NCBI RefSeq assembly: GCF_003003845.1
Contig: NZ_PVWO01000002.1
Coordinates: 1-39,874 of the forward strand
Origin: Chamaesiphon polymorphus CCALA 037
Lineage (GTDB): Bacteria > Cyanobacteriota > Cyanobacteriia > Cyanobacteriales > Chamaesiphonaceae
Length of the DNA stretch: 39,874 bases
Direction of reading: 5' to 3'
Positions 3 to 25,057 of the stretch are shown in pieces. Both the position numbers and the translations under genes were made by a program. The notes under the pieces are model-generated. The model ran no database searches. It was not told where the DNA came from and saw only the letters and a list, made by a program, of their open reading frames with translations. Position 1 is the stretch's first letter; every line of letters begins with the position of its first letter.

Positions 3-3000
3 GCTGAAGAAGTCCTCAATGAAAGCCCTTCCCTCTGGTACCTAACCGGATTCCTCGTTCCCTATGAAGCCACCCCCAGCCAGCGCAGTGACGACACCGC
101 CGATGATGACTTAGATTTACAAGATCGTCCGAGTAATGGTGATGATGACACCTCGCCAGAAGCCGCTTCCGCCCGCCGCGCTTATTTCCCCTCCTCAATG
201 GGTTTGAACTTCTTCGTCACACCCGATACCCAAACCATCACCGCGATCGTTAATTGGGGGGAATATACAACCACCAAGCCACCCGCAGCCGAAAAAGACA
301 CCACGCCCCAAACTTGGCAGCGTCAACCGCGTCAAGTCTCGATCGAGATTCCCATTCCTACCACCCAAAAAGTCCACAAGCAGCTAGTTACCCCAGATGG
401 ATTGGAACTAACGATCGCCGCCCGTCCCGTATCAAATGCCACCGGATTACCTCCTGGTACTCAATCGGTATCCCTATTCCTCGTCAATAATCGTCCGCCC
501 TGCGAAGAGAAAGATCTGGGCTATATTTTTCAAGCACAACTCACCGTCACCAGTGCAATTCCCTTAGTTCCCCGCCCCAATCCCAGAGGACAAAGTGGTA
601 ACGACTTAGATGAAGCCATCGCCGATCTCCAATACCGCGATGAGCGTGAATACACTGTCGGGCATAACGTTTCAGTCGTCGCCCATCTGAATTCAGATCG
701 CACCTGTAACCTGATTAGTACAGCCTGGATGCCCACCGCTGAAGTAGAAAAGGTAATTCCAGGCGATGTCCCCGCTGTAGAGTTGGAGATGGAAACGATC
801 GCGGCGGCTGAAGATGCCCGATCGATTCAGGATATGCTCGGTGGAATCGTCACCACTTACAGTAGTTGGATTATTACCCAACAAGCACAGATTCCCACCT
901 TGGATCGATCGGGACGCATCGTTACAGCCAAAAAACTGCTCCAAGATGCCGAGCGGGTAAATCGTCGGATTGCCGCAGGTTTAGAGAGTTTGAATGACCC
1001 CCAAGTGTTTGCTGCGTTCAAATTAGCCAATCGCTCGATCGCCACCGCAATTCGCCAACGTTTGAGCCATAACAGCGAAAAATTACCCGTTGATTTCGCT
1101 CGTCCTAAATGGCGACCTTTCCAACTAGCATTCATTCTGATGAACATGGTGGGAATTGCCGATTCCAGCCATAGCGATCGCGAAATTGTCGATCTGCTCT
1201 TCTTCCCCACAGGCGGTGGTAAAACCGAAGCCTATCTCGGTTTAGCCGCTTTTACCCTCGTCCTGCGTCGCCTTCAAAATCCTGGTATTCAGGGGGGTGC
1301 CGGATTGAGTGTCTTAATGCGCTACACCCTCCGACTGCTGACCCTCGACCAATTAGGACGGGCGGCGACCCTGATCTGCGCTCTGGAATTAGAACGCCAA
1401 CAAGACCCCCAAATGTTAGGCGATTATCCCTTTGAAATCGGCTTATGGGTAGGGATGGCGGCAACACCCAATCGGATGGGGAAAAAAGGCGATAACGACG
1501 CTAATTCTGCCCGCGCTCGGACTATTGCCTTCCAAAACGATACCAAAGGCAAACCCTCACCCATCCCCCTTGAAAACTGCCCTTGGTGTGGGAAAAGATT
1601 CTTGAAAGATTCGTTCCAATTATTGCCCAACAACGATACCCCCAGAGAATTGCGGGTCAGTTGTCTCAGCCGTAAATGTAAATTCCGTGCCACTAATCCC
1701 CTACCGTTAATTGCGATCGACGATACCATCTACCGCCGTCTCCCTTGCTTTCTGATTGCCACCGTCGATAAGTTTGCCAATCTGCCGTGGATCGGTCAAA
1801 CCGCCGGACTATTTGGTAAAGTAACTCATCATTGTCCCAAAGATGGCTTTTCCGGCGCGGCGGATACAGCTAAACCTGGTAAGAAATTACCCCAAGGATC
1901 TCTGTTACCCCCAGATCTAATCATTCAAGACGAACTACACCTCATCTCTGGCCCCTTGGGAACGATGGCTGGACTATATGAAACGGCGATCGATGCCCTC
2001 TGTACCTATGAAAAGGATGGCAAACCAATTCGCCCCAAAATCATCGCTTCTACAGCCACTGTAAGGCGTGCCAGCCGTCAAATTCGAGCCTTATTCGGAC
2101 GGACAGAAGTAGATATTTTCCCACCGCCTGGGATCGATCGGCGCGACTCTTTTTTTGCCAAGACTGTCACCGCTGACGAACGCCATCCCCGCATTTATCT
2201 CGGTATTGCCGCTCAGGGGCGCAGTCTCAAGGTTGCCTTATTACGCTCCTATATGGCTCTACTCGGAGCCGGACAAAAAGAATGGGAATTAGCTGGTGGT
2301 AAGAAAAACCTCCCCAATCCCGCCGATCCTTACATGACCCTACTCGGTTACTTTAACTCCCTACGAGAACTAGGTGGCAGTCGGCGGATTGTCGAAGATG
2401 AAGTGAATACACGATTGAAAAGTTATGCTTCTCGCCGCCGCGTCAATGAAGTAACGGGTTCTTTTGTCGATCGCGAAATCGATAACGACCCCTGCGAACT
2501 AACCTCTCGTGTCAGCACCAATAAAGTGGCAGATACTAAACGGCGACTGGATTTAACCTTCGACAATAAAGACCGAGTAGATGTTGCTTTAGCGACAAAT
2601 ATGATTTCTGTCGGTCTAGATATCACCCGCTTGGGTTTGATGGTGGTGTTAGGACAACCAAAAACTGCGGCGGAGTATATTCAAGCCACCAGCCGCGTCG
2701 GGCGGGATGAGAACCGCCCTGGACTGGTAATTACCCTCCTCAATATTCACCGTCCCCGCGATCGATCTCAATACGAACATTTCACAGCTTGGCACACCTC
2801 TTTCTACCGCGCTGTCGAAGCTACCAGCGTTACCCCCTTCTCCCCCAGAGCGATCGATCGGGGTTTGGCGGCGGTAACGGTTGCTCTAGCTAGACTGGGA
2901 CATGGGGAACTCACCGCCCCATTAAATGCGGCTAATATTACCAATTGTCGCCAGCATTTAGAATTTGCGATCGATACCATCTCTAAACGGGCTGAAGGTC

Positions 3001-3302
3001 ACGATTCGGAGCTAGATGATAAATCAGCCGACAGGCTGCGCCAGAAGCTGCGCGGTAAGGTTCTAGACTTGCTGGATGATTGGGAAAAGATCGCGGGTAA
3101 AGGCTTACTTCAATATCAAGAAGAAGCCGGAAAAGCCCCGCCCTTATTACGGAATTTCCTCGATCCGGCACTCAAGAAACTTGGCGCAGATAATCCCGCT
3201 CACAAATTTAGAGCGCAGCGCAGTCTCCGCGATGTCGAACCAGTAGTTGAATTGTGGGTCATCAATCCAGATAATGTCGAAATCGATGGAGAAGAGTCAT
3301 GA
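3..3302 (+). CDS. drmA: DISARM helicase DrmA (5' partial)
   Basis: Superfamily 2 helicase of the DISARM anti-phage system, which with DrmB and DrmC restricts incoming DNA. The reading frame is open to the left edge: codons before the ATG at 198 encode LWYLTGFLVPYE and RRAYFPSSMG, the usual DrmA N-terminus, so that ATG is internal and the true start lies outside the window. Counting from the ATG at 198, Walker A (PTGGGKTEAYLG) is near residue 338, a four-Cys zinc site (CPWC ... CLSRKC) near 460-493, the DExH box DELHLISG near 577, motif III IASTATVRR near 615, and motifs V/VI (NMISVGLD, QATSRVGRD) near 800-830. The stop overlaps the drmB start (ATGA). The methyltransferase expected of a full DISARM locus is not in the window and would have to lie upstream. 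Confidence 0.9.
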   Translation, partial: AEEVLNESPSLWYLTGFLVPYEATPSQRSDDTADDDLDLQDRPSNGDDDTSPEAASARRAYFPSSMGLNFFVTPDTQTITAIVNWGEYTTTKPPAAEKDTTPQTWQRQPRQVSIEIPIPTTQKVHKQLVTPDGLELTIAARPVSNATGLPPGTQSVSLFLVNNRPPCEEKDLGYIFQAQLTVTSAIPLVPRPNPRGQSGNDLDEAIADLQYRDEREYTVGHNVSVVAHLNSDRTCNLISTAWMPTAEVEKVIPGDVPAVELEMETIAAAEDARSIQDMLGGIVTTYSSWIITQQAQIPTLDRSGRIVTAKKLLQDAERVNRRIAAGLESLNDPQVFAAFKLANRSIATAIRQRLSHNSEKLPVDFARPKWRPFQLAFILMNMVGIADSSHSDREIVDLLFFPTGGGKTEAYLGLAAFTLVLRRLQNPGIQGGAGLSVLMRYTLRLLTLDQLGRAATLICALELERQQDPQMLGDYPFEIGLWVGMAATPNRMGKKGDNDANSARARTIAFQNDTKGKPSPIPLENCPWCGKRFLKDSFQLLPNNDTPRELRVSCLSRKCKFRATNPLPLIAIDDTIYRRLPCFLIATVDKFANLPWIGQTAGLFGKVTHHCPKDGFSGAADTAKPGKKLPQGSLLPPDLIIQDELHLISGPLGTMAGLYETAIDALCTYEKDGKPIRPKIIASTATVRRASRQIRALFGRTEVDIFPPPGIDRRDSFFAKTVTADERHPRIYLGIAAQGRSLKVALLRSYMALLGAGQKEWELAGGKKNLPNPADPYMTLLGYFNSLRELGGSRRIVEDEVNTRLKSYASRRRVNEVTGSFVDREIDNDPCELTSRVSTNKVADTKRRLDLTFDNKDRVDVALATNMISVGLDITRLGLMVVLGQPKTAAEYIQATSRVGRDENRPGLVITLLNIHRPRDRSQYEHFTAWHTSFYRAVEATSVTPFSPRAIDRGLAAVTVALARLGHGELTAPLNAANITNCRQHLEFAIDTISKRAEGHDSELDDKSADRLRQKLRGKVLDLLDDWEKIAGKGLLQYQEEAGKAPPLLRNFLDPALKKLGADNPAHKFRAQRSLRDVEPVVELWVINPDNVEIDGEES

Positions 3303-5173
3303 GTAAGTCTAAAAAAGCTGCCGGAGAAGTCCGTCAAAGTCAGGTTTTATCCACATTCGGGCCAGGATCGATGGTCGATTTGCCCAATTATGCCGTATTG
3401 ATTGGCGGGCTAAATCACTGGCAAGGATACAAAAATCAGCCGATTTATGAAGATCGTTTAGCCAGTCGGCTTGCCGAAATTTTGGGGGTTAATCGAGTCG
3501 GTATGTACGCTCCCCCCGCCCAAGAAACAGAACCTAATGCCCCCCGCACTGGCGTGAAAGCCTTTGTCTTTCCGACCTGGTTTGTCGCTCAAAAATCTGA
3601 AATCTACCGATTCCAAGGGCGTGAATATCAAAGCCGTGCCTTACTGCCTTACTCTAGGCTGGTAAATGGTTCTTATCTCAATGACTTAAAGAAGAAAGTT
3701 TCCGTCGTCCCGATTCGCTTCGTCCAAGCCTGTCCGAACGGACATATTAGCGATATTGATTGGTATAAATTTGTCAATAAGGATTGTCGCAGCAATTGTC
3801 CCGCGCAACTCTATTTAGATGAAGGTGGTACGGGAAATAATTTTGCTGATATTTTCGTGCGGTGCGAACAGTGCAAAAAACGCCGCCCATTAGGTGATGC
3901 GATTTATTCTCCCGATAATATCTTGGGTTTCTGTCAGGGCAATCGCCCCTGGTTGGGTCATAATGCTGGCGAAAATTGTTTGGTGGGCGGTACGGGCACC
4001 GATACCGAACCGCCCAAACGAGAACGCAATCGATTATTAGTGCGTTCGGCGAGTAATGCTTACTTTGCCCAAACCCTAAGCGTCATCTCGATTCCCGACT
4101 CCGATCGAAAATTAAAAGCAGCAGTCGATCGAGTATACGAGGACTATCTCCAATATGCCGAAGATGACAACGACATTCGCAAAGAACGCAAAAAGGAGCG
4201 AGTTGCAGAAGCGATCTCAGCCTTTACCGACATACAAATTTGGCAAGAAGTCGAACGCCGTCAATCAGGAGCCAAGCCGCAGGAGAAAGGAATCAAACAG
4301 GTCGAGCTAGAAGCCTTTTTGGCGAGTGAAGATGCCGTAGGTGAGGATATTCCCGATGGCGATTTCTATGCCTGCAATCGCCAATTATCGGGCTTACCTG
4401 AAGCTTTAGATGCGCGGATCGATCGAATCGTCCTCGTCCATCGGCTGCGGGAAGTCATCGCTCAAGTCGGTTTCACTCGGTTTGAACCCGAACTCCCAGA
4501 TATCGATGGGGATCTGTCTTTAGGGGTGCGGCGGGCAGCTTTATCCCTGGAAAATAATTGGCTGCCAGCGATCGAGAATCGCGGGGAAGGTGTGCTGATC
4601 TCTTTCAAAGCTGCGGCAGTTCAGGATTGGTTAACCAGAGCGGCGACGATCGCTAGAGGAAAGGAACTAGTAGCTGGTTTCCAGCAGTGGCTTCAACGCA
4701 AAGGGTTAAACCCAGATGAGGTTAAATTCCCTGGCTTGCCCTATATCATGCTCCATTCCCTTTCTCATCTCTTAACTACATCCATATCGCTAGAGTGCGG
4801 CTATGCCGCCAGTTCGATTCGAGAGCGGATCTATGCTGGAGATTATGGTTATGGCATCCTCCTTTATACGGGTTCATCCAGCTCTGAAGGGACGTTGGGC
4901 GGTTTAGTTCAAATTGGCGATCGAATCGAGCATCATTTAGCATCAGCTTTAGAGTATGGCAAACTCTGTTCAAACGATCCGGTGTGTTCTCAACATAAAC
5001 CAGAGAACGCCCAAGTCGAGAGATTTTTACATGGTTCGGCTTGTCATAGTTGCTTACTGATTGCCGAACCTTCTTGCGAACGGCGGAATGAGTTTCTCGA
5101 TCGAGATTTAGTCGTTAACACGCTCAATTCATCCGGTGCGGCATTTTTTCCAGATCGCTTGGATGAGAGCTAG
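3299..5173 (+). CDS. drmB: DISARM protein DrmB (DUF1998)
   Basis: DISARM core protein that forms a complex with DrmA. It begins with the typical SQVLSTFGPGSMVDLP block, followed by zinc-binding segments (CPNGHISDIDW near residue 144, CEQCKKRR near 187) and a C-terminal DUF1998 region (LPYIMLHSLSHLL near 479). The last 60 residues hold a cysteine/histidine cluster (CSQHKPE ... CHSCLLIAEPSC). The length of 624 aa fits the family. The ATG overlaps the drmA stop by 4 nt and the TAG stop abuts the drmC ATG, so the three genes are translationally coupled. Confidence 0.9.
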   Translation: MSKSKKAAGEVRQSQVLSTFGPGSMVDLPNYAVLIGGLNHWQGYKNQPIYEDRLASRLAEILGVNRVGMYAPPAQETEPNAPRTGVKAFVFPTWFVAQKSEIYRFQGREYQSRALLPYSRLVNGSYLNDLKKKVSVVPIRFVQACPNGHISDIDWYKFVNKDCRSNCPAQLYLDEGGTGNNFADIFVRCEQCKKRRPLGDAIYSPDNILGFCQGNRPWLGHNAGENCLVGGTGTDTEPPKRERNRLLVRSASNAYFAQTLSVISIPDSDRKLKAAVDRVYEDYLQYAEDDNDIRKERKKERVAEAISAFTDIQIWQEVERRQSGAKPQEKGIKQVELEAFLASEDAVGEDIPDGDFYACNRQLSGLPEALDARIDRIVLVHRLREVIAQVGFTRFEPELPDIDGDLSLGVRRAALSLENNWLPAIENRGEGVLISFKAAAVQDWLTRAATIARGKELVAGFQQWLQRKGLNPDEVKFPGLPYIMLHSLSHLLTTSISLECGYAASSIRERIYAGDYGYGILLYTGSSSSEGTLGGLVQIGDRIEHHLASALEYGKLCSNDPVCSQHKPENAQVERFLHGSACHSCLLIAEPSCERRNEFLDRDLVVNTLNSSGAAFFPDRLDES

Positions 5174-5974
5174 ATGTCCATTTTCCACCAACTCAGCCGC
5201 CCCACCCTCCTGCACCTCGCCACCGCACTTCAAACCGGACGCTTGCAACTACCTGTCGATGCGATCGAGTTAGCTGATTATATTCCCGCCAATCTGCAAC
5301 CGCTGGTGGGGGCAGAATTCGAGCATCTCCAAAGTCTGGAAATGACCAGTCAACAAGTCGCCTATCTACTGCGACTACTCGCCCAAGAACGCCAATTGCA
5401 GCAAGCGCAAAGCGATCGAGTCGATCTAGTCTGGACTGGCGCAGAAGTGGCAAATAATGAGAGTCGGGATACCAAAATCGTCGTGCGGGAGTTGTTCAAA
5501 TTAGCTAAACACCATGTAACTATCTCTAGCTACGCCCTCGACCGTGGAGCCAAAAGCCACGAACTATTTGCGCCTCTCGCCCACCAGATGGATGAACAGC
5601 CCAGCCTTAAAGTTCGACTCTTTGTTAACATCCAGCGTCCCTATCGCAATCTCGATCCAGAAGCTGCAATTCTTTCCCAGTTTGCCCTCAATTTTCGCCA
5701 ACACATCTGGCAGGGGCGCAGATTGCCAGAGTTATTCTACGATCCTCGCGCCCTAGCTACTGGATTAGAGACAAGAGCCTGTCTCCATGCTAAATGTGTA
5801 ATCGTTGACGATCTACATCTATTTGTTACATCTGCCAATTTTACCGAGGCGGCTCACGAACGAAATATTGAGGCGGGAGTATTACTGACAAACGAGATCG
5901 CTGCTAAATCGATGCGATCTCAATTGGAACAGCTCGTTCGCAAGGGAATTTTAAAACAACTGATGGGCTTGTAG
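5174..5974 (+). CDS. drmC: DISARM phospholipase D-like protein DrmC
   Basis: Phospholipase D-superfamily member, third gene of the DISARM core. A canonical HxKx4D motif is present once near residue 205 (HAKCVIVDD), followed by SANFTEAAHERNIEAG, the usual context of a C-terminal HKD half. The N-terminal half has the fold-like segment VTISSYALDRG but no second HKD, so activity would need dimerisation or a degenerate site. It starts immediately after the drmB stop (TAGATG). DrmC is reported as partly dispensable in DISARM. It converges with the NYN gene, only about 40 bp away. Confidence 0.85.
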   Translation: MSIFHQLSRPTLLHLATALQTGRLQLPVDAIELADYIPANLQPLVGAEFEHLQSLEMTSQQVAYLLRLLAQERQLQQAQSDRVDLVWTGAEVANNESRDTKIVVRELFKLAKHHVTISSYALDRGAKSHELFAPLAHQMDEQPSLKVRLFVNIQRPYRNLDPEAAILSQFALNFRQHIWQGRRLPELFYDPRALATGLETRACLHAKCVIVDDLHLFVTSANFTEAAHERNIEAGVLLTNEIAAKSMRSQLEQLVRKGILKQLMGL

Positions 5975-6016
5975 ATAAAATGTTGACACTTTGCCGCCCC
6001 GAACTCAAGTTCGATA

Positions 6017-6784
6017 TTAAGATCTAGCGATCGAATCTTTTGCATTTTTTTGTTTATTCCTGACATAGACTACTGTGCCCTGACGCTGAATTTCAAATAA
6101 ATCGATCGCCTTAAACAAGCTATATAACTTCGTGTAGCCATAGTTACGCGAGTCAAAGGATGCTTGATTGGTAATGTGTCCGCCGACATCTGCTAAATTC
6201 GACCAGTCATCATCATCCGCAGTGTTAGAAACAGCACCTCTCAATAGACTGATTAACTTGGTATCTTGCTTCAACTCTTGGCTAGTCTTTTTAAGATTGG
6301 TAGAAACCTTAATATTCTCGCCACTATTGAGATCGACATCGATTGCTCGATCGATCGTCTCTAAATATAGGAATGTGGAGCAGGCGCGAACGAAAGGTAA
6401 TGGCGTTTTTGTTTCTCCAAACCCATAAACTTTCAGCCCATTAGTCAAAATCCGCATTACTAGCGGCGTAAAATCACTATCGCTCGATACTATGGCAAAA
6501 GCATCTAAGTGTTGTGTGTACAGTAGATCCATTGCATCGATAATCATTGCGGCATCGGTCGCATTTTTCCCTTTTGTATAGTCAAATTGTTGAACTGGTC
6601 GGATCGCATACTCATGTAAACACTCTTCCCAAGACTTGATATTTTGACTCTTCCAATTTCCGTAAGCTCTCCTAACGTTGGCAACTCCATACTTCGCAAT
6701 CTCAGATAGAATTGCTTCAATTTTGGATGCAGGTGCATTATCCGCATCAATGAGGAGTGCAATTTTTGATTCTGACTGCTGCAT
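6017..6784 (-). CDS. NYN domain nuclease-like protein with C-terminal LOTUS/OST-HTH-like domain
   Basis: LabA/DUF88-type NYN (PIN-fold) protein, a class of metal-dependent RNases. Visible motifs are LLIDADNAPASKIEAIL at residues 9-25, KGKNATDAAMIIDAMD near 95 and IVSSDSDFTPLVMRI near 118, which together give the conserved acidic cluster. Residues about 180-245 (SLLRGAVSNT ... SRNYGYTKLYSLFKA ... RQGTVVYVR) look like an OST-HTH/LOTUS RNA-binding domain, a common partner of bacterial NYN domains. It is convergent with drmC, so it is not in the DISARM operon. A defence role is only suggested by location; housekeeping RNA processing is equally possible. Confidence 0.75.
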   Translation of the reverse strand: MQQSESKIALLIDADNAPASKIEAILSEIAKYGVANVRRAYGNWKSQNIKSWEECLHEYAIRPVQQFDYTKGKNATDAAMIIDAMDLLYTQHLDAFAIVSSDSDFTPLVMRILTNGLKVYGFGETKTPLPFVRACSTFLYLETIDRAIDVDLNSGENIKVSTNLKKTSQELKQDTKLISLLRGAVSNTADDDDWSNLADVGGHITNQASFDSRNYGYTKLYSLFKAIDLFEIQRQGTVVYVRNKQKNAKDSIARS

Positions 6785-9132: not shown

Positions 9133-10395
9133 TTACATTGATAATCTATCCTCATCTTGTAACCGTTCGTCTTCTTCTTGAATCGTGGTTAATTCAACAT
9201 TCAAGGAAGCTAAGCTTAATGGCTTGGAGATTTGCAAATTTACTTCTGACAATGTAGATACGATGTCTTCTTGTAATTGTGAGTTTGAAGTGGTTTCGAT
9301 CGATCCTCGTCTGCGACCTCCCGTTTGCTGTTGTGGAGTAATTTTATTTAATCGTTCGAGTAACTGTACGTCTCGCAGATCGATGTCGGGAAATCCACTA
9401 GGCTCCCAATCATTTCCAACTCTAGTTGCATTTAGCATTAGCTTGTTCGGACGAATACGATACACACTTAAAGTATTCCCATCACACTTAATTTTGATAC
9501 GACCGTTCTCGAATTTTGTTTTCCCATCCAACTTCATTCGAGCTAATTCGGTTAGACGATCGAAGATCGATCGGTCTGCGAGGTTTAGCTTAACAGGGCG
9601 ATCTCGAATGCGGAGGTTGGCTTCTTCCATCAGTTCTAAGTCTTGACGATCTGGAGTTAACTTGCCCCTCACTTTTTGCCAACTCGCACCAAGATCGCTA
9701 CCTTTATACGCTTTTCCAGCACGAACAAAAGTTATACCACGTACCACATTTTTGGATGTGAGGTTAAATCTGACATCAACCGTATTTTTTGCTAGGCTGT
9801 CGAGCCAGCGTTTTAGGTCGATATTGGGCTGTAACGAGTCTTCTACGATTTTGACGATTTCTAAGTCTGATTTTGCAATTTTCGTCTCTTGCTGCCGAAT
9901 TTTAGCTCGTTTGACATCCCAGGAAGATTCGATCTGGCGCAGCCCGAATTCGGCTTCAACTTTACGTAGAGCATTCTGAATCTTGTACATATCCCACTGT
10001 GGATGGACGTGCTTGCCAAAGACATCTACCCCGTTGGCAACAATGTGTAAATGATCGTGGTCGTGAGCTTCGTCGTGTCCAGGGTCGTCCCGATGATGGT
10101 CGATGGCAATATATTGACATTCCTTGTATCCTAATGCTTCTAGAACGCGCAAGGCAATCGCCTCTTTGATAACATCGTCTACTTGCTTATCTTCTGGTGC
10201 AAAGGCAATTGAGAAATGTCTGACTGGTTTACTCACGCGCCGATTGAGGTTGCTGACTCTGCGGAATTCGATCGCCATGTCGCTCTGGGTTTTACTTTCC
10301 AAGCAACTGCTGATAATTCGCGGTCGCTTGTCGGGGTCGAGTAAATAACCCAGGACTCCCCCAAACCCATTGCCTTTGCTAATCTTTCCAATCAT
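9133..10395 (-). CDS. Relaxase / mobilization nuclease (MobA/VirD2 superfamily)
   Basis: Nicks plasmid DNA at oriT and pilots the strand into the recipient. The N-terminus MIGKISKGNGFGGVLGYLLD carries the presumed nucleophilic Tyr (about residue 17). The metal-binding three-His motif is present as HDHDHLHIVANG near residue 113, preceded by an acidic/His-rich stretch. The 420-aa length fits the family. Its start overlaps the mobC stop (TAATG), so the pair is coupled. The C-terminal 38 residues (LQISKPLSLASLN ... LQDEDRLSM) resemble the ends of the HipA-like kinase and FolD-like proteins farther along this window (see findings). No type IV secretion genes are visible, so this is mobilizable rather than self-transmissible within what can be seen. 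Confidence 0.85.
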   Translation of the reverse strand: MIGKISKGNGFGGVLGYLLDPDKRPRIISSCLESKTQSDMAIEFRRVSNLNRRVSKPVRHFSIAFAPEDKQVDDVIKEAIALRVLEALGYKECQYIAIDHHRDDPGHDEAHDHDHLHIVANGVDVFGKHVHPQWDMYKIQNALRKVEAEFGLRQIESSWDVKRAKIRQQETKIAKSDLEIVKIVEDSLQPNIDLKRWLDSLAKNTVDVRFNLTSKNVVRGITFVRAGKAYKGSDLGASWQKVRGKLTPDRQDLELMEEANLRIRDRPVKLNLADRSIFDRLTELARMKLDGKTKFENGRIKIKCDGNTLSVYRIRPNKLMLNATRVGNDWEPSGFPDIDLRDVQLLERLNKITPQQQTGGRRRGSIETTSNSQLQEDIVSTLSEVNLQISKPLSLASLNVELTTIQEEDERLQDEDRLSM

Positions 10396-10793
10396 TAGCT
10401 TTTGGCTCCAAGCTTTTGGATTCTCTTGGCAATTAACTGGTTAGCCGCAGCAATTTCTTGTAGGGCTTTGCTGTCAATTTCGATCGCTCGTCCCTCCTGA
10501 TTTGCTAAATTCACACCTCTGGCAATTTGATTGAGGTTATTCCCTTGGGCGATATATTCTCTTCTGATTAGCGTGAGTTCGGCATATTCGTCTTGACTCA
10601 ACCGTTCTTGTTTGAGTCGTCTGAGCGTTCGATCGTTTATCGTGCCACGAAAAAGCAGATATTCAGAGCGGTTCATATTGACAGCTCTACACTCCGCTTC
10701 GATGATCTCCAATTGCTCGTTACTGACACGGAGACTGATGTGATTGGTTTTTTGTGAGGGCTTAGCGTCATTTCTAGATATATTGATACTCAT
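10395..10793 (-). CDS. mobC: MobC-like relaxosome accessory protein
   Basis: 132 aa. Ribbon-helix-helix-like N-terminus (HISLRVSNEQLEIIEAECRAVNMNRSEYLLFRG) followed by the MobC signature GNNLNQIARGVN near residue 88. MobC proteins bind oriT and help the relaxase open the strands. The start is preceded by AAGAAG at a suitable distance. It is directly upstream of and coupled to the relaxase gene, and directly downstream of the putative oriT, the usual arrangement. Confidence 0.8.
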   Translation of the reverse strand: MSINISRNDAKPSQKTNHISLRVSNEQLEIIEAECRAVNMNRSEYLLFRGTINDRTLRRLKQERLSQDEYAELTLIRREYIAQGNNLNQIARGVNLANQEGRAIEIDSKALQEIAAANQLIAKRIQKLGAKS

Positions 10794-15611: not shown

Positions 15612-16724
15612 TCAGTTCAGCAAAGCAATCATTCGATCGAGTAGCAAATTTAACTCTTGCTTAGTCACCACCGCGAGGGATTCGTTTCTGATTGTGTGTA
15701 ATACGAATTCGCTTTTCTCTTCGATCGTGACATTTAGATCTTCTTCACTGTGAGTTACCAGCTCATTAGCGGTGTCGATTGTCGGTAGATGAGGGTTGAG
15801 TTCTAAATTAGCTTTACTACTATCATTGTATTTGAGATCTGCCGCATTGCCCAAGCTGTCTGGTTGAGATTTTTTCGATGGTTTAACCAAAGCTGCTGCT
15901 TTTTTAACTTCTCGAATGCTCAAGTCCTCTGAGATCGTTCGCTCTAGCAGCTTTGCTCTGGCTCGGTCATCTTTGACCTTGGCAATTTCGGTGCCTTTAG
16001 TATAATCGACCTCACCATTAGAAATTGCGAGTTTAATTTCTGCGGGGATATTTAGTAGCTTGAGGCGATTGCTAGCAAAGGAGGTTAAACTCAAGCTACC
16101 TTTAGTAAATTGCTTAATACAGCTTTCGATCGTCTGAGCTGTTTCTTTAAGAATAACGTTATTCTTAGATACTTGACCGCCCAGCTCATTCTTAATTTGA
16201 CGTATTAACGTAGCGGCGGCTTCGCGATTATCTAAATTTAACTTGCGAGCAATGGTATCTAGAACCGAATTAGTCTCGTCGATGGGGTTGAGATCCGTTC
16301 TTTTGATGTTTACCAACGTCACATAATCAGCCGCTACATCGTCGCTAACATCGAGACGACGGTACTTCACCACCATGTTTAGTTTGCAAGCTACACGAGT
16401 CCGCCGCTCCCCATCAATTAGTTCGTTGGTATCACGTAGTAACAAAACTGGGGTAATTACCTCTCCTGCGGCGAGAATGCTATCTTCGAGTTCTTGCATC
16501 TCAACTGGATCGAAATTCGTGCGCGGTTGCCACCGAGAGGGTACTAACAGATTAGAGTCGATCGTCCCATCAAATGCTTTAGAACTCGAATTAGCCTCAG
16601 ACTGGAGGCGATTTACTTCACGCTGGAGTTCGGCAAGATCGATTTCATAGTCTTTGATTTTCGATTCCAGTCGCCCAACTTTAAAGTCTTCATCTAAAGC
16701 AGCCATTTGATTAGGTTTTGCCAT
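15612..16724 (-). CDS. parB: ParB-family plasmid partition protein
   Basis: Centromere-binding partner of ParA. The ParB/sulfiredoxin-like core runs from NLLVPSRWQPRTNFDP through LEDSILAAGEVITPVLL to the signature LIDGERRTRVACKL. A helix-turn-helix region follows (IDETNSVLDTIARKLNLDNREAAATLI), and there is a long, less conserved C-terminus with a coiled-coil-like N-terminal segment. The ORF opens at 16760, but ATG at 16724 (MAKPNQMAALDED, overlapping parA by 14 nt) or 16706 (MAALDED, 5 nt after the parA stop) is more likely because the extra residues lie inside parA. Confidence 0.8.
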   Translation of the reverse strand: MAKPNQMAALDEDFKVGRLESKIKDYEIDLAELQREVNRLQSEANSSSKAFDGTIDSNLLVPSRWQPRTNFDPVEMQELEDSILAAGEVITPVLLLRDTNELIDGERRTRVACKLNMVVKYRRLDVSDDVAADYVTLVNIKRTDLNPIDETNSVLDTIARKLNLDNREAAATLIRQIKNELGGQVSKNNVILKETAQTIESCIKQFTKGSLSLTSFASNRLKLLNIPAEIKLAISNGEVDYTKGTEIAKVKDDRARAKLLERTISEDLSIREVKKAAALVKPSKKSQPDSLGNAADLKYNDSSKANLELNPHLPTIDTANELVTHSEEDLNVTIEEKSEFVLHTIRNESLAVVTKQELNLLLDRMIALLN

Positions 16725-17706
16725 AAATTTTATCGAAAAGTAATTTAGTGAGTCGTTCAAATTCTAAACTAGATTTGTGCCCAGGACGATAAATACCGAT
16801 CGGTTTTCCGGCTTCGTTGGCATTTTTAACCTCTTTAGAATCGGTAATCGGCTCGAATAGCTCGACTTCAATATAATCACAGCGAGATTTAAAGGCAGCG
16901 AGTGCTTGGCGATGGCTGGCAGTATCTTTCTCGTACCCAACAGGAACGATGCCCAATACAGTCGGGCGGGGATTCAAGCGTAAATCTCTACTGATTTTTT
17001 CAATCGTGTCAAATAAGCCATTAAGTCCTTGTACGGCTTTACCTTCTGGCACGAGGGGGATTAATAAATGCGTCGCACTGGCAATAGCATTGTCGATAAC
17101 TAGTCCCAGCGTGGCTGGGCAATCCATGAGGATCGCATCGTATTCGAGCGGGTAATCGACAAATAGATCGGCTAGAACTTGCTCTCTTCGTCGCCGCAAA
17201 ACGAGTTCTTGTTGAACGCGCTGGAGTTCGTTACAACCTCGGATAATTGAGGTTTGTCTACCTTCTATTTGGACGATGGGGTAATTCCCCTGAAAATTTT
17301 CAGCAAATACGTCCACCATCGTGCCAACCTTTTTTGTGCTGGTCAAGCCACAGAATAGGTCTAAGTTGTGCTGGATATCTAAGTCGAGTAATAGTGTAGA
17401 TTTGCCTAGTTTGTTCAAGTTGTACGCAATATTATGGCATAGAGTTGATTTACCAGCACCACCAGAATTACTGAGAATTGCAATCCTCACTTGCGCTGAG
17501 TCTTGAATCTCATTCTTTGTTTCTTCACGAACTATTGATTGGCTCATTTGTATAGATAGAAGACTGTTAACTAATCTGCTGTATCTTGGCTGTTGTCGCA
17601 GCCATCGAGCTACTTGAGGATCTAGCGATATTAGTAAGGATTCTTTTTTCTCACTAGAAGGTTTAGGCTTACGACCAGAACCAATTCTACTGCCACCTTT
17701 TGTCAC
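16711..17706 (-). CDS. parA: ParA-family plasmid partition ATPase
   Basis: 331 aa. Walker-type ATPase with deviant P-loop ILSNSGGAGKSTLCHNIAYNL near residue 80, LLLDLDIQHNLDLF and ILMDCPATLGLV (Walker B region). The first 55 residues (RIGSGRKPKP ... LDPQVARWLRQQPRYSRLVNSLL) look like a small DNA-binding domain, consistent with autorepression. It starts with GTG (CAC at 17704-17706 on the plus strand). A perfect palindrome 11-48 bp upstream is the probable operator or parS. Confidence 0.85.
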   Translation of the reverse strand: MTKGGSRIGSGRKPKPSSEKKESLLISLDPQVARWLRQQPRYSRLVNSLLSIQMSQSIVREETKNEIQDSAQVRIAILSNSGGAGKSTLCHNIAYNLNKLGKSTLLLDLDIQHNLDLFCGLTSTKKVGTMVDVFAENFQGNYPIVQIEGRQTSIIRGCNELQRVQQELVLRRRREQVLADLFVDYPLEYDAILMDCPATLGLVIDNAIASATHLLIPLVPEGKAVQGLNGLFDTIEKISRDLRLNPRPTVLGIVPVGYEKDTASHRQALAAFKSRCDYIEVELFEPITDSKEVKNANEAGKPIGIYRPGHKSSLEFERLTKLLFDKIYGKT

Positions 17707-17716
17707 AACTGGATAA

Positions 17717-17754
17717 AATCATTTGAAAAAACTATATATTTTTTTCAAATGATT
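17717..17754. promoter_or_regulatory. Perfect palindrome upstream of parA (operator or parS)
   Basis: Arms 17717-17731 (AATCATTTGAAAAAA) and 17740-17754 are perfect 15-bp inverted complements around an 8-nt AT-only-like loop (CTATATAT). It sits just before the parA GTG and in the divergent gap to the 107-aa gene. The position fits an autoregulatory operator for the DNA-binding N-terminus of ParA, or a parS site for ParB. Confidence 0.6.
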
Positions 17755-17856
17755 GTCAAGTTCGGACGAGATCCGCTAAATAACTCATGCCAGCAACAGA
17801 TCGAGCGAGTTAAGGTAGGGTAATTATTAGATCGATATCTGCAACAACATTCTGAT

Positions 17857-18180
17857 ATGTCGCCCCACCCGCATTTAACCTATTTTGATGGAGATCTTGC
17901 TGATTTTAGAGATGTGCGCTTATTTTGTATGATTCGTGGCTTTCAAGGAATGTGGCAAGAGCGGATCGAACATCGAAACGGAAAGATCGATGGCACACTA
18001 ATAATGGTGAAATTAGGCGATCGGCTGTATCGCTATAACAGTCCCCAACCGCTAGATCCAAAGATTTCCCAAGTGCAGTTAGGTTTTGTGATTCGCCATC
18101 GCTTAAATGCCTCGCTCAGGTACAGAATTTTAAATTCGATTTCAGGGCTGTATTCAGTTTTAATGGGGAAGAAATTGTGA
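17857..18180 (+). CDS. Hypothetical protein, 107 aa
   Basis: Not recognised. Residues 1-40 are mixed and the middle reads RIEHRNGKIDGTLIMVKLGDRLYRY, suggestive of beta strands. It is divergent from parA and overlaps the next (TPR) gene by 4 nt (GTGA), so the two are probably co-translated. There is no clear ribosome site upstream. Confidence 0.5.
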   Translation: MSPHPHLTYFDGDLADFRDVRLFCMIRGFQGMWQERIEHRNGKIDGTLIMVKLGDRLYRYNSPQPLDPKISQVQLGFVIRHRLNASLRYRILNSISGLYSVLMGKKL

Positions 18181-19495: not shown

Positions 19496-20578
19496 TCAAA
19501 GACTTAATTCATCTTCATTACTCAGATCGTTACGATCGATTTGGGTCAACTTAGTTGCATCTGAATCATTGTCTAATTCATAAAGTAAACCTTCAGTAGG
19601 ACGAGATATATAGCCTTCAACTTCTGGTTCGTTCAAGTCGGCTAAGCTTCTAGGTTTTTGACTCAGAGCGCGTCCGGCTGATAATCGCCAACTGAGTATC
19701 TGCTTTCTGCCATCATCGATCGTCTGCTTAGCAAATTTTTCAGCAGTCGGAGTAATCCGGTCGTGCGGAATACGATCGAATATCTCGTTAATTTGCTTTG
19801 GAGTAATCCGTGCTAGTCGCTCTTGCCAGATCGAGGCAGCTTCGGGGTAAAGCTTTGCAGCGATCTCAAAAGCTCGTGGAGTAAGAATGTTATCAACCCC
19901 GTCGTAGAAGCTCCCTTCCAAGTATTCATGGTAGTCCGTAGTGCTGAACGTTTGACGCTGCTTGTCGCTTAGGGTCGCGCCCATTGCTTGCCCCTGGTCG
20001 AACGTCGGGGCTAGTTCTTGGGTGCCATCGGGCAAAACCTGAATCTCGAAGTTTTGGTCGTGGCGATCGCAGTTGGCGATGAGATTGTCGAGCATTAAAT
20101 ATCCAACAAATACTTTAGCAGCGTTATCGATGCCTTCTGGTAAGTCGAAACCACTGGGAACGGCAACTCGTTCTTGCTCCAAGGCATTGAGAACGCGATC
20201 GATAGCATAGGTACTAGGATACTTATCGGCATAGTCAGGGTAGAAATCACTCAAGAATTTCTCACCACTTTTGGGTTTAGCATTTTCCAGTTTGAAGCTA
20301 AAAGAAAATGAGCCTCTAATGGGGTCGTAATCTTCATCAATGGTCGCTTCGGCCAACTCATATCTAGTAGCAGGTAGATCGAGTAGTTTCGCCAGCTCGT
20401 ATGCGATTTTCTCCGTCCAATCAGTTTGGATTTCTGGAGATTCCTCTATCGATGAGGCTTTAAATAGCACATTTCCAAATTTGGAATGTTCCAGCCAAGC
20501 CTTATCTTGTACCCCACTCTGTTCTAAAAATTCAATTTTTCCCGCTTCGTAGATTGGAAATTTCTTGAGTGCCATCAT
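19496..20578 (-). CDS. HipA-like serine/threonine kinase with C-terminal tail module
   Basis: About 360 aa. HipA/CtkA-type protein kinase fold: catalytic loop LIANCDRHDQNFEI (NxDRHxxN) near residue 169 and metal-binding APTFDQGQAMG near 193. Kinases of this class phosphorylate aminoacyl-tRNA synthetases or translation factors in toxin-antitoxin modules. The track begins at a TTG, but the ATG at 20578 overlaps the upstream stop (TGATG) and is preferred. The last 56 residues, from LSQKPRSLADLNEPEVE to the acidic end LSNEDELSL, lie beyond the kinase and are nearly duplicated on the FolD-like protein. There is no HipB; the preceding HIRAN-like gene is the obvious partner. Confidence 0.7.
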   Translation of the reverse strand: MMALKKFPIYEAGKIEFLEQSGVQDKAWLEHSKFGNVLFKASSIEESPEIQTDWTEKIAYELAKLLDLPATRYELAEATIDEDYDPIRGSFSFSFKLENAKPKSGEKFLSDFYPDYADKYPSTYAIDRVLNALEQERVAVPSGFDLPEGIDNAAKVFVGYLMLDNLIANCDRHDQNFEIQVLPDGTQELAPTFDQGQAMGATLSDKQRQTFSTTDYHEYLEGSFYDGVDNILTPRAFEIAAKLYPEAASIWQERLARITPKQINEIFDRIPHDRITPTAEKFAKQTIDDGRKQILSWRLSAGRALSQKPRSLADLNEPEVEGYISRPTEGLLYELDNDSDATKLTQIDRNDLSNEDELSL

Positions 20579-21333
20579 CAAATTCCCGTGTAAGTTTGAT
20601 ATTCAGCGGTGGCGAAAGGAGTTAACAACGTTCCATTGACAGTTGCATGACACAAGAGGCTGTGAAACTGTGGTGCTTTGAGGTTAACTCTAGCTACTTC
20701 AATTTGGATGGCGGTGGGGCAAGTACGAGCCATTTCTAGTAAATAGCCTGGGAGTCTGCCGAGTTGAAATCGTCCATCACCCAATTGGTTATCGGTAACT
20801 CCTAGTTGATGACCTGGTGCTAATTGCAATAAATACTCATAACAATCGGGTTCGAGCTTACCAATGTCTAACGGCAAAAAGTGGAAATGATAGTCACCTT
20901 GACTATCTGGTCTAATTTCAGGAAAGACATCATAACTGTCTTGATATCTGCGTCCACCGCTACGAGACACATAGGCAATTGGATCGATGGGATCTTCAGG
21001 CAAGCCTAACCATTGTTGCTGCTGCGGTACATATCTAGTTCTCGACAATGGCATTCTTGATTTAAAGTCGAGGCTTTCATTCTCAGTGACGTGGCTTTGA
21101 TACAGTCGGTCTGGGTGCCTGATAAATGACGATTTTTCAATCGGGCTAAGTTCGATCGCTCGTTCCATCCCTTTGGTATAGCGGAAGCAGTATCGACTCA
21201 GATCTGGTGCCCAAGTCATTTTTGCCACTGGCAGCCAGAGATCGCTCTGGTAATCTTGCCAGCCGAGAAATAATCCGGTAATCTCTCTACCGTGGGAGAG
21301 GGATTGATGTTGTGATGTTTTGGTGGAAATCAT
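20578..21333 (-). CDS. HIRAN-domain-like protein, partner of the HipA-like kinase
   Basis: 251 aa. The N-terminus ITGLFLGWQDYQSDLWLPVAK and FRYTKGMERAIEL, a central SGGRRYQDSYDVFPEI and the segment LLQLAPGHQLGVT ... LGRLPGYLLEMA match the layout I know for bacterial HIRAN-type proteins that pair with HipA/CtkA-like kinases. HIRAN domains in other proteins bind DNA 3' ends; here the role is probably to regulate or target the kinase. Its stop overlaps the kinase start, so expression is coupled. Confidence 0.5.
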   Translation of the reverse strand: MISTKTSQHQSLSHGREITGLFLGWQDYQSDLWLPVAKMTWAPDLSRYCFRYTKGMERAIELSPIEKSSFIRHPDRLYQSHVTENESLDFKSRMPLSRTRYVPQQQQWLGLPEDPIDPIAYVSRSGGRRYQDSYDVFPEIRPDSQGDYHFHFLPLDIGKLEPDCYEYLLQLAPGHQLGVTDNQLGDGRFQLGRLPGYLLEMARTCPTAIQIEVARVNLKAPQFHSLLCHATVNGTLLTPFATAEYQTYTGI

Positions 21334-21939: not shown

Positions 21940-23190
21940 TTAAATACTAAGACCATCTTCTTGGGATAAATCGTCTGGATCGTCTGGCTCTATTTTTAGT
22001 CTAGTTGCATCTGGATCGTTGGCTAATTCATACAGTAATCCTTCAGTAGGGCGAGAGCTAGCGGCTTCAACTTCAGGTTCGTTTAGGTCGGCTAGACTTT
22101 TAGGTTTTTGACTTACTTGGAGTTGAGTCTGGGTTAAAGAGCTTTCTATTAACACTTGAGTTGGAAAGCTAAGTTCGAGATTTTGGACTTGACTGGTTAA
22201 TGAGTCGGAGGTTAAATAGTTTCCAGTCCTCAAATCTTCTGAAGACAACTCGTTTAGCTTGGTTAGCTGCCAAGGCTTGAGTTGGAGTTCGGGAAACTCC
22301 TTTATGATAAATCGCTCTGCCAAGACTGCCATTTCCATCGGGCCGATTCCTCCAGGTACTGGCGTGATAAAATCAAATCGATCGCGAGCTTCTTTTTGGA
22401 TGTCACCAAGGATGATATTTTTACCACGGTTATCGAGGCGATCGGTAATGACAAATCCACAGTCGATGCCCAATTCTGGCTGTATATCTTGTAGATTATC
22501 GGTGTTCAGTATTTCTAGTTTGCCAGTTGCAGAAACTATAATATTAGGGTTGAGTTCTATAATATTTGCTGTTGTTTTTGGGGAGCGTTCATCTATTTCT
22601 GTTATTTTCAAGTTCAACTCTTTTTTTCTATTGTCTAGATAGCCATTAACTCCTTTCCCTACAAATCCTGAAAATCCGATCAGAACTACCTCAGAATCTG
22701 ATTTCAATCCAGCTTCTAGTACCCGACAAATCGCATCGGCTGTCGCACATCGTCCCCATCGAGCTTGACCAGCTTTGCTCATTGCATCGATATCTTTATT
22801 AGGAGCGATGAGTTCAACAATTTCTCTGTTGTTATTTTTATCACTTAGTTCTGTAGGAATTGGGTTTTGAATGATGATTCCGCAAACTGTATCAATTTTG
22901 TCAACTTCAGTCATCAAATTTGCAAATTCATCGAAGGTCATATCCCACGGAAGATCTATACGGTCGAATTCACATCCTAGAAAATCTTTGAATATCTTCT
23001 GTTTTTGGTTGGTGGATGTATTTGCAGCTTGATAATCAGATAAATTTTTCAAGCTTGGACTTTTAGGAAGCTCGAACTGAAAGACAACTATTTTCTTTAA
23101 GCTTAATTCAGCCCGAAATTGTGTCTTAATTAGTTCGAGCTTCTTCTGAACGTCGGCTTTAATTCTCGCTCCATTGATAAAGTGAGTCAT
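21940..23190 (-). CDS. FolD-like protein with C-terminal tail module
   Basis: 416 aa, longer than the about 290 aa of FolD (methylenetetrahydrofolate dehydrogenase/cyclohydrolase). FolD hallmarks: GIIIQNPIP near residue 104 (Gln), PNKDIDAM near 130 (Asp), VLIGFSGFVGKGV (dinucleotide loop), IVSATGKLEIL and TPVPGGIGPMEMAVLAER near 278. The lysine of the YxxxK catalytic pair seems present in STNQKQKIF, but the tyrosine is not obvious, so activity may be altered. Residues beyond about 310 are extra; the final 58, from VSQKPKSLADLNEPEVE to LSQEDGLSI, match the tail of the HipA-like kinase. It overlaps the upstream gene by 4 nt. Confidence 0.65.
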   Translation of the reverse strand: MTHFINGARIKADVQKKLELIKTQFRAELSLKKIVVFQFELPKSPSLKNLSDYQAANTSTNQKQKIFKDFLGCEFDRIDLPWDMTFDEFANLMTEVDKIDTVCGIIIQNPIPTELSDKNNNREIVELIAPNKDIDAMSKAGQARWGRCATADAICRVLEAGLKSDSEVVLIGFSGFVGKGVNGYLDNRKKELNLKITEIDERSPKTTANIIELNPNIIVSATGKLEILNTDNLQDIQPELGIDCGFVITDRLDNRGKNIILGDIQKEARDRFDFITPVPGGIGPMEMAVLAERFIIKEFPELQLKPWQLTKLNELSSEDLRTGNYLTSDSLTSQVQNLELSFPTQVLIESSLTQTQLQVSQKPKSLADLNEPEVEAASSRPTEGLLYELANDPDATRLKIEPDDPDDLSQEDGLSI

Positions 23191-24230
23191 CGACGATTAA
23201 ACCATCCTAACTCTTGAAAGGATGATTCAGCAGTACCTAATGGTTCGCTCCGTAAAAATATCTGCGATTCGCGTTGACTATCTTTAATATATATTTTTTC
23301 AATCTCAATTTCCCCCAATTCATCTTTTCTTAATTTAAGTATCTTAATAAGAGAACCATAACCTCGTCCTTCATCCTCAAAACTATGAGCTAACTTAGTT
23401 TCCAAAAACCAGCCTATATTATCAGCTTGATATGGTAAAAGTAAATGTGAATATTTAGTGCGAATCTCACCAATTACTTGAGACAAGTGACGCTCGACAT
23501 GATTTGTACTGGTAGGGTCGTAGCCAATATTTTGTGTTGGCGGCAGATTACTAAGTGGCTCAGTAATTATCACTATGGCAGTTTTACTTCTGCACCAAAT
23601 TCTTACTAGAGAATGTGCGGGATAATCGGGATGTTCCCAAAATAAGATAGTCTTGAGGATTGTCGATCCATCTTCATTGACCTTTTGAATGGTGTAATCG
23701 ACATCTAGGCGATTCACCCCTTTGCGCCAGTTGAATCGATCGGTTATTTCTTCAGGCGTACCAAAATATTCTTTAAAGAGCGGTTTATGAGAGTTGTCAT
23801 TAATTCTTTTTCCAAATTTTTTGCTTCGGCTTGGCTCTGGATATATAAATTTCTCTCCATCCCACTGGGGTGTCATCCAGCGATAGTACTCTTGATATTC
23901 ATTGTCATAATAATCGATATTCTGAAAAGGGTGACGAATATCTACATGGTCTAATTTAATATCATGCTCCACCCACTTAATCGCGCCAGGATCTACACCA
24001 GTAGGCTTGAGGTATTGTTGCCAAACTTGATTTAAAACCATCTCATTAGCAAAAGAAAAGTGATTATCCCATAACCCAGCGATGAGAACTATTTGGCTAT
24101 CTACATGAAAGCGAATCAGGGAAGCAGTATCGCTACCCTCTTCGTTGACATGCTCCACGATCGCCTTGAGAGTTCTGCTTCCATCAGGATTAGTGTCAAT
24201 ATAGCAATATTTATCTTGAGCGATTGTCAT
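23187..24230 (-). CDS. Hypothetical protein with internal duplication, 347 aa
   Basis: Not recognised. Two similar segments: CYIDTNPDGSRTLKAIVEH with LIRFHVDSQIVLIAGLWDN near the N-terminus, and YTIQKVNEDGSTILKTILFW with LVRIWCRSKTAIVIITEP near residues 175-230. This suggests two copies of a small beta domain joined by an aromatic-rich linker (DYYDNEYQEYYRWM). It overlaps both neighbours by 4 nt, so it is co-translated with the glycosyltransferase (upstream) and the FolD-like protein (downstream). Confidence 0.6.
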   Translation of the reverse strand: MTIAQDKYCYIDTNPDGSRTLKAIVEHVNEEGSDTASLIRFHVDSQIVLIAGLWDNHFSFANEMVLNQVWQQYLKPTGVDPGAIKWVEHDIKLDHVDIRHPFQNIDYYDNEYQEYYRWMTPQWDGEKFIYPEPSRSKKFGKRINDNSHKPLFKEYFGTPEEITDRFNWRKGVNRLDVDYTIQKVNEDGSTILKTILFWEHPDYPAHSLVRIWCRSKTAIVIITEPLSNLPPTQNIGYDPTSTNHVERHLSQVIGEIRTKYSHLLLPYQADNIGWFLETKLAHSFEDEGRGYGSLIKILKLRKDELGEIEIEKIYIKDSQRESQIFLRSEPLGTAESSFQELGWFNRR

Positions 24231-25057
24231 GAATTTACCTCCTCAAACGCAGAAATTCGTTTATTTGTGAGTGCTTGAGAGCGATAGCGAGTGGCTAAGT
24301 TAGCGATCGCGCTAACTTCATCTGACAGTAGACAGCTATAATCACTTCGGTGTGCTAATAGATATTCTAACTCTTTAGCCCAATCGTCATAGCTCGAACT
24401 GCCAATTACTCCCTGGTTAGTTTGAATATAATCAACTAAAATATTTGGATTAACCGAGAAACTTTCGCGCTTCCAGTAGCTCACACATTGGAGTAAAAAC
24501 TCATAATCGATGTAGATTTTCAAATTCGGATTCCATCTCAACCGATCGTCTTGTCGATGGCTGAATCCATTACTATCGACTAGCTGTTTATGAGTGAGTA
24601 GTTCGTCGATCGTGCAGTTACCTGTTGGCGAGTAAAACTCTTTTCCCCGTTTGATAATTTTACCATTTTGTATAACGTCCCGCCTCCGTTGTTGAATGGG
24701 CATAACGTAATTAATCTGAGGATGTCGATCGAAAAAGGCGATCGTCTCTTCTACGAAATTAGATTTGAAAGTATTATCATCGTCGAGATAGGTTACGATC
24801 TCCCCTGCGGCTAGTGTCAGTCCTTGGCTCCTGGCGTAACAAAGACTAAAGCCACTGTCTGGGCATACTAGATCTATATATGTATGTTTAAAGTTTAACT
24901 GGCGGTCTTTAATTAAATCTCTGGTAAGCACATTTCCACCATCATTGAAAACGATCCACTCAAAATCTTGACAAGTTTGAGCTTCTAGGGAAATAATCGC
25001 GTTTGCTAGTAGATTCGGGCGCGATCTCGTAGCGGTAATAATTGACAGCTTTGACAT
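24227..25057 (-). CDS. Family 2 glycosyltransferase
   Basis: 276 aa GT-A fold enzyme that transfers a sugar from a nucleotide donor. Visible are the N-terminal SIITATRSRPNLLANAI, EWIVFNDGG, and the metal-binding LDDDNTF near residue 90, after AGEIVTYL. No membrane segment is seen. It heads a three-gene coupled operon with the 347-aa unknown and the FolD-like gene. A relic of a second copy lies immediately upstream. The acceptor cannot be inferred. Confidence 0.75.
   Translation of the reverse strand: MSKLSIITATRSRPNLLANAIISLEAQTCQDFEWIVFNDGGNVLTRDLIKDRQLNFKHTYIDLVCPDSGFSLCYARSQGLTLAAGEIVTYLDDDNTFKSNFVEETIAFFDRHPQINYVMPIQQRRRDVIQNGKIIKRGKEFYSPTGNCTIDELLTHKQLVDSNGFSHRQDDRLRWNPNLKIYIDYEFLLQCVSYWKRESFSVNPNILVDYIQTNQGVIGSSSYDDWAKELEYLLAHRSDYSCLLSDEVSAIANLATRYRSQALTNKRISAFEEVNS

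Follow-up and report, generated by a model that had tools for sequence, protein, structure and literature searches.

Why should the relaxase of a cyanobacterial plasmid-like contig, a HipA-like kinase and a FolD-like enzyme finish in closely similar C-terminal residues? Relaxases are the proteins exported in conjugation, and the translocation signals of most type IV secretion systems (T4SSs) are short and degenerate, so that the protein cargo of conjugation is hard to predict. The whole stretch of DNA analyzed, hereafter the window, is a Chamaesiphon contig of 39,874 bases with no overlap between its two ends, and its relaxase, MobC, actin-like ParM-type and ParA/ParB-like genes give it a plasmid-like character. 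The three C-termini reported in the initial annotation were confirmed in the sequence, all on the minus strand: the 420-aa MOBP relaxase (9133-10395), whose C-terminal letters read ...EDERLQDEDRLSM, ends in ...SKPLSLASLNVELTTIQEEDERLQDEDRLSM, the kinase (19496-20581) in ...SQKPRSLADLNEPEVEGYISRPTEGLLYELDNDSDATKLTQIDRNDLSNEDELSL and the FolD-like protein (21940-23190) in ...SQKPKSLADLNEPEVEAASSRPTEGLLYELANDPDATRLKIEPDDPDDLSQEDGLSI.

The window relaxase matched Pfam Relaxase PF03432 (E = 5.9e-23) and stayed under the cut-off of the NCBIfam TraI/MobA(P) model (1.5e-17). This PF03432 nuclease domain, the conserved residues H100/H113/H115/H117 and an adjacent MobC/NikA-type relaxosome accessory protein (10395-10793, minus strand; Pfam NikA-like PF21983, E = 1.7e-7, above the cut-off) are together the features of a MOBP mobilisable element, and the closest loci to this relaxase in GTDB contigs (9 loci in the scan) were Chamaesiphon MAGs. 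No T4SS-like ORF was recognised among the window ORFs, and the pairing of a T4SS with a T4CP on the element, which marks a self-transmissible one, was thus not seen; transport would need to be provided in trans. Three full VirD4-type matches were found in the genome, on contigs C579, C106 and C740 and none on the window contig, so mobilisation in trans is possible. The DISARM core genes DrmA, DrmB and DrmC lie consecutively on the same contig as the relaxase (198-5974, plus strand), with PADLOC E values of 0, 8e-78 and 8.1e-114, respectively.

In both the kinase and the FolD-like protein the tail appears as an addition to a core. The kinase core (residues 1-300) matched the PADLOC profile PDC-M03A over residues 2-298 (E = 7.7e-62), leaving the tail outside the profile, and matched Pfam HipA_C slightly under the cut-off (6.7e-7). 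Its AlphaFold2 model is confident in the core, which in Foldseek resembled CtkA (8e-10), HipA and HipT of the PDB, and predicts the tail, residues 301-361, to be disordered (pLDDT 28-45); the catalytic motif DRHxxN is invariant (D172, R173, H174, N177). By profile, predicted fold and motif, the protein can be classified as a HipA/HipT-type kinase of PDC-M03A. The family is common, with members in 47 of 245 Cyanobacteriales genomes when the window's own genome is counted, and almost all homologues from the 46 other genomes stop near the position of residue 300 of the 361 in the window kinase. The PDC-M03B partner protein (20578-21333, minus strand; PADLOC E = 4.8e-26) has no tail, and in each M03 pair the tail is on the kinase only, an arrangement that would fit delivery of an active enzyme without its partner. 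The FolD-like protein, of the THF dehydrogenase/cyclohydrolase type, has a core from residue 1 to about 320, with matches to PF02882 (2e-15, 56.9 bits against a cut-off of 27) and PF00763 (2.4e-9, 37.9 bits against 32.8); it lies under the FolD equivalog level, the best NCBIfam match reaching 83 bits versus a cut-off of 477. Its plasmid homologues align only as far as residue ~322 of 416. Genes for FolD-like proteins and family-2 glycosyltransferases co-occur on several cyanobacterial plasmids (window 21940-25057; L289:5995-7997; L290:2905-7494).

The kinase tail, SQKPRSLADLN...SNEDELSL (19496-19663, minus strand), and the FolD-like tail, SQKPKSLADLN...SQEDGLSI (21940-22113, minus strand), have about 56 residues in common at 71% identity (E = 3.3e-17 by blast in their own genome), and the bodies of the two proteins are unrelated. 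The base rate of such sharing was estimated from 1,289 ORFs of cyanobacterial mobile-element contigs, which gave 67,107 same-contig pairs, by counting pairs with C-terminal 60-mers alike at E<1e-4 and no body homology by the script's criterion. Only 8 of the 67,107 pairs were found, among which the kinase/FolD-like pair was the strongest (8.9e-24) and the runner-up reached 2e-8. At the nucleotide level the two tails have diverged to 76% identity, with dN of 0.13, dS of 0.82 and a rough dN/dS of about 0.15 over 41 codons, a low ratio that points to selection on the peptide.

The relaxase takes part in this tail to a lesser extent than the initial annotation had proposed. Its tail proper, an SKPLSLASLN block and a QDEDRLSM terminus, occupies 9133-9228 (minus strand), the span of 9133-9249 given earlier adding a few residues, and it has both ends of the tail (SLAxLN and EDxLS[M/L/I]) without the middle ~25 residues. 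What is common to all three proteins is thus two blocks and not one domain; the claim of one tail holds along ~56 residues for the kinase and the FolD-like protein. When the blocks were taken from these two proteins alone, with the relaxase left out of the definition, the relaxase ranked 1st of 1,545 ORFs (score 56, z = 6.2, mean 3.3, s.d. 8.6), followed by a 598-aa protein and then mostly by other relaxases. Pairwise shuffles of the relaxase against the tail gave P values of about 0.03-0.06 under strict gap costs and 0-0.004 under loose ones, and in a profile that already included the relaxase its blocks reached E values of 0.12 and 0.78 only. The grouping of the relaxase with the other two was hence borne out by the two-block ranking and not by the profile search, and its own link to the tail is weak by pairwise and profile searches.

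The terminus itself proved to be a recurrent feature of relaxases. In Chamaesiphon, an x-[LIMF]-S-[MLIFRC]-COOH end is shared by almost every relaxase, across several families, and the ends in the genus include DRLSM, EGLSM, NSLAI, YGITM, RGFSR, HGLSM and QGMSL as well as RGMSL, RGISM, YGMSM and EGLSF. The pattern [GREDNSQHK][LIMF]S[MLIFRCV] terminated 13 of the 718 ORFs on relaxase contigs; of these, 11 are relaxases and the other two are the kinase and FolD-like protein. In a C-terminal alignment of 8 relaxases of the window family, the mean BLOSUM62 scores were 2.75, 2.75 and 3.25 at positions −4 to −2 and 1.07 at −1, and most of the 16 positions preceding this conserved terminus averaged near or below zero. 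Across the phylum, a phi-S-[RLMI...] end was found in 27 of 73 cyanobacterial relaxases versus 17 of 1,439 other ORFs, a figure that includes both the FolD-like protein and the kinase, and a second group of cyanobacterial relaxases ends in phi-[E/D]-phi (ELEL, EWEL, IELD). Weighted over 28 clusters, the two types of end accounted for 20% and 28% of relaxases versus 0.75% and 2.0% of other ORFs; because the motifs were set after the tails had been seen, and with relaxases that are partly related, these counts describe an association and not a blind test. One universal relaxase terminal motif was rejected, as several non-cyanobacterial relaxases end in RGFKPR, GRSL or RRKR and many cyanobacterial ones in phi-[E/D]-phi.

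Sharing of a relaxase tail with cargo is rare: in 57 other MOBP regions, no neighbour shared the tail of the relaxase at E<0.01. A 539-aa protein (L163:2941-4560, minus strand) has a C-terminal half that by eye resembles that of the L162 relaxase, both ending in SQMEL; it has no Pfam relaxase nuclease domain and looks like the C-terminal half of a relaxase left as an orphan next to a second relaxase. At L202, near a relaxase ending in SSGLSLD, an SLOG/DUF488-type 730-aa protein ends in SQEVEL (15898-18090) and a 155-aa protein in DDSGFSR (5553-6020), both on the minus strand, and these two are possible further cargo.

The distribution of the full tail is narrow. The initial annotation had suggested a search for bearers across cyanobacterial plasmids, and no match to the SLADLN tail beyond its own genome was found in 72,556 plasmids, 391 Cyanobacteriales genomes, 386 phylum-wide genomes or IMG/VR; a vicinity to transfer genes was seen inside the genome, where the tail occurs only on the contig of the MobC and relaxase genes and beside VirD4 in a T4SS cluster. 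The latter bearer, the 598-aa protein on contig C579, is the only other protein of the genome with the SLADLN...GLL..L.D.SEATKL part, and it is encoded two genes after a coupling protein of the VirD4 type (PF02534, 3.4e-30); their cluster also contains VirB4-, VirB10- and VirB6-like genes, these three judged by size and order and not by profile. It ends in EEESLQQ and thus has no relaxase-type end (LS[M/L/I]), and the tail blocks form a mosaic across this protein, the relaxase, the kinase and the FolD-like protein. In other Chamaesiphon genomes, homologues of the N-terminal half of the 598-aa protein occupy the same site after VirD4-like genes. The family has members of 556 to 1024 aa (L249:5925-8990, L250:4362-7436, L251:2997-4667, L252:154-2640 and L005:1945-3741), and wherever VirD4 is visible their genes are placed two genes after it. 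The N-terminal half is conserved among them, the C-termini vary (ends AMQPSR, QAQPSL, TQSLNL and EEESLQQ), and there is no Pfam family. The C579 cluster also encodes a 1885-aa protein (L004:10184-15841, minus strand) with no Pfam or NCBIfam match.

A comparable arrangement with another tail was observed on an element from another cyanobacterial family (G150:C80), where one tail of ~105-124 residues, different from the Chamaesiphon tail, is borne by three proteins: a relaxase of the MOBF type, a kinase from the family of the window kinase, and a Zeta-toxin protein. The last ~124 residues are common to the 424-aa kinase, ending in NGLSL, and the 390-aa Zeta-toxin/KfrB protein, ending in YLSI (blastp 4e-24), and the element's own 821-aa relaxase bears the same tail and ends in DIGLSL; a TraD-like gene and a T4SS-like cluster are located 9-28 kb away. 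In the 72,556 plasmids, this tail had one match, the C-terminus of the TrwC/MOBF relaxase of Chondrocystis NIES-4102 plasmid2 (PF08751, 1.6e-68), which is followed by TraD and whose residues 812-933 of 933 match both G150:C80 proteins (9e-21 and 2e-19). In 391 genomes, the tail profile otherwise matched mostly the C-termini of ~970-1010-aa ORFs, with ends such as ISR, LSLSR and IGLSL, that were read as MOBF relaxases, the relaxase assignment being confirmed by profile for Chondrocystis only. The tail is predicted to form a compact alpha-beta5-alpha domain (pLDDT 86), for which no fold match was found in the PDB. A short ORF at L257:11622-11918 resembles a collapsed second copy of the G150:C80 Zeta-toxin gene, with the start and a middle fragment only.

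Further loci gave a mixed picture. On a 5-kb Chamaesiphon contig (G152:C314), a kinase with an extension ending in DDLSLGG was found with a relaxase fragment ending in DDDGLSM. Plasmid FolD-like proteins elsewhere also bear extra C-terminal regions: that of Nostoc pCENA543a matched the C-termini of two MOBP relaxases from other species (1.2e-5 among 1,568 ORFs) and had no similarity to the MobF of its own plasmid, and those of Acaryochloris had none to the adjacent MobF relaxase. On at least four Chamaesiphon elements (L104, L105, L254 and L255, the last with a break or insertion), three genes are neighbours, those of a relaxase ending in RGFSR or RGCSR, of a PDC-M03B-like protein and of a HipA-like kinase that has no tail, and these four relaxase-adjacent kinases are a point against an export function.

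We consider it likely, judging from the sequences, that the tail is a relaxase-type C-terminal signal for type IV secretion, that is, for recruitment by the coupling protein, grafted onto plasmid-encoded cargo. The candidate signal proposed in the initial annotation is supported by the near absence of the relaxase-type terminus from other ORFs, by the confinement of the tail to the vicinity of relaxase and VirD4 genes, and by the G150:C80 replicate. In the donor, a VirD4-type coupling protein would recognise the flexible C-terminus, the key part of which may be the acidic residues followed by x-hydrophobic-Ser-hydrophobic-COOH, and the kinase and FolD-like protein would be fed through the T4SS, either with the relaxase-bound plasmid strand or independently of it. 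Ahead of plasmid gene expression, the HipA/HipT-type kinase would already act in the recipient, whether in growth arrest, in defence or in establishment, and a contribution of the FolD-like enzyme to the supply of nucleotides or one-carbon units is possible; VirD4 recognition, passage through the channel and these recipient roles are steps that we infer. Because the kinase and the enzyme carry the tail of the relaxase, and an unrelated plasmid does likewise with other tails, both proteins probably accompany the plasmid into the recipient. We give about even chances to the broader proposal that cyanobacterial relaxases end in a short code used in conjugation (G/D-[LIMF]-S-[RLMI]-COOH with variants phi-[E/D]-phi-COOH), which plasmids have repeatedly grafted onto defence-type kinases, Zeta toxins and FolD-like enzymes that enter the recipient with the DNA. 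With such entry, a candidate defence or arrest kinase and a folate-type enzyme would be at work in the new host ahead of all plasmid gene expression.

The tail could instead act in the donor, as a tether by which the kinase and FolD-like protein attach to the relaxosome, the coupling protein or the VirD4-adjacent protein without export, for example to regulate transfer by phosphorylation. Such docking would agree with the SLADLN part of the VirD4-adjacent protein, which has no relaxase-type end, with the weak likeness of the Nostoc pCENA543a FolD-like extension to a VirD4-adjacent 449-aa protein (E = 0.002) and with the tail-less kinase genes that also adjoin relaxases. We regard it as unlikely, however, since the termini of the kinase and FolD-like protein match that of the relaxase, the very protein exported in conjugation, and the G150 kinase and Zeta-toxin protein have the relaxase C-terminus, which for VbhT is a mark of export (PMC5675462).

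Relaxases and plasmid toxins might also share an end because both are short-lived or co-localised, the end being a C-terminal degron, a PDZ-type ligand (phi-x-phi-COOH) or a tag for membrane or partition targeting. Many of the ends fit phi-x-phi-COOH (LSM, LSL, LSI, LEL) and the tail is predicted to be disordered, but RGFSR, LSLD and IELD fall outside any PDZ class and the motif is enriched in relaxases and seldom seen among other ORFs of plasmids, unlike a general degron, so that we consider a turnover or localisation tag improbable. Docking or a turnover tag would account for part of the data. That the tail is neutral and disordered, has no function and was carried from gene to gene of one element by recombination appears very improbable: its disorder, its position at gene ends and the mosaic of blocks among the four proteins would all be expected, whereas the dN/dS of about 0.15, the same outcome in G150 with a different and folded tail, and the conservation of terminal residues across relaxases would not.

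The C-termini of relaxases are here legible as a motif within one phylum, and proteins with the tail of a relaxase become candidate cargo; if secretion of tailed cargo is correct, toxin delivery by conjugation would extend from Rhizobiales-type BID systems to Cyanobacteria, the list of cargo would gain a metabolic enzyme and a candidate phage-defence kinase, and minimal candidate signals of 4 to 56 residues would be directly testable. Among known systems, the closest is VbhT of the Bartonella plasmid pVbh, in which a relaxase-derived BID domain directs export, with the Zeta-like PezT of Chelativorans plasmid 1 as a further proposed case (PMC5675462). As in VbhT and PezT-BID, a toxin-type enzyme on a conjugative plasmid has a C-terminal region common to the plasmid's relaxase, tail-less relatives exist, and Zeta/PezT-type and HipA-type toxins are the cargo; a C-terminal region common to the relaxase of the same element, the mark of BID substrates, was found in the window, as two blocks, and on G150:C80. 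The analogy with BID drawn in the initial annotation stands at the level of function, as no BID family was found on the relaxase, kinase or FolD-like protein (Pfam, E<=0.1). Unlike VbhT and PezT-BID, the hosts here are Cyanobacteria, and the region, in which no BID was found, is either a tail that is short and disordered or the C-terminal domain, 105-122 aa long, of a MOBF relaxase; a PDC-M03A kinase and a FolD-like enzyme are among the candidate cargo, and delivery is what we infer.

On the F plasmid (pED208), plasmid-encoded non-relaxase proteins, the ‘conjutome’, pass the conjugative T4SS and C-terminal signals can suffice (PMC8406263, PMC11288057); unlike the proteins described here, their C-termini were classed by charge and hydrophobicity and have no sequence tail in common with the relaxase. 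The Legionella Dot/Icm E-block (PMC10025392) is an acidic/Glu-rich stretch near the extreme C-terminus that the Dot/Icm coupling complex recognises, and acidic residues precede the terminus in the tails studied here, a possible likeness; the machine and taxon differ, and the terminal x-[LIMF]-S-[MLI] is absent from that description of the E-block. The kinase and its partner resemble the PDC-M03 candidate defence system of PADLOC, both genes of the M03A/M03B pair being present, and differ from it in that the profile stops at residue ~298, which places the tail outside the family. No cyanobacterial report of relaxase-tailed cargo delivery was found in open-access literature text. Thus, conjugative delivery of toxins by a C-terminus shared with the relaxase is already known, and what is new here is the phylum, the two non-BID tail types, the readable relaxase terminal motif and the cargo.
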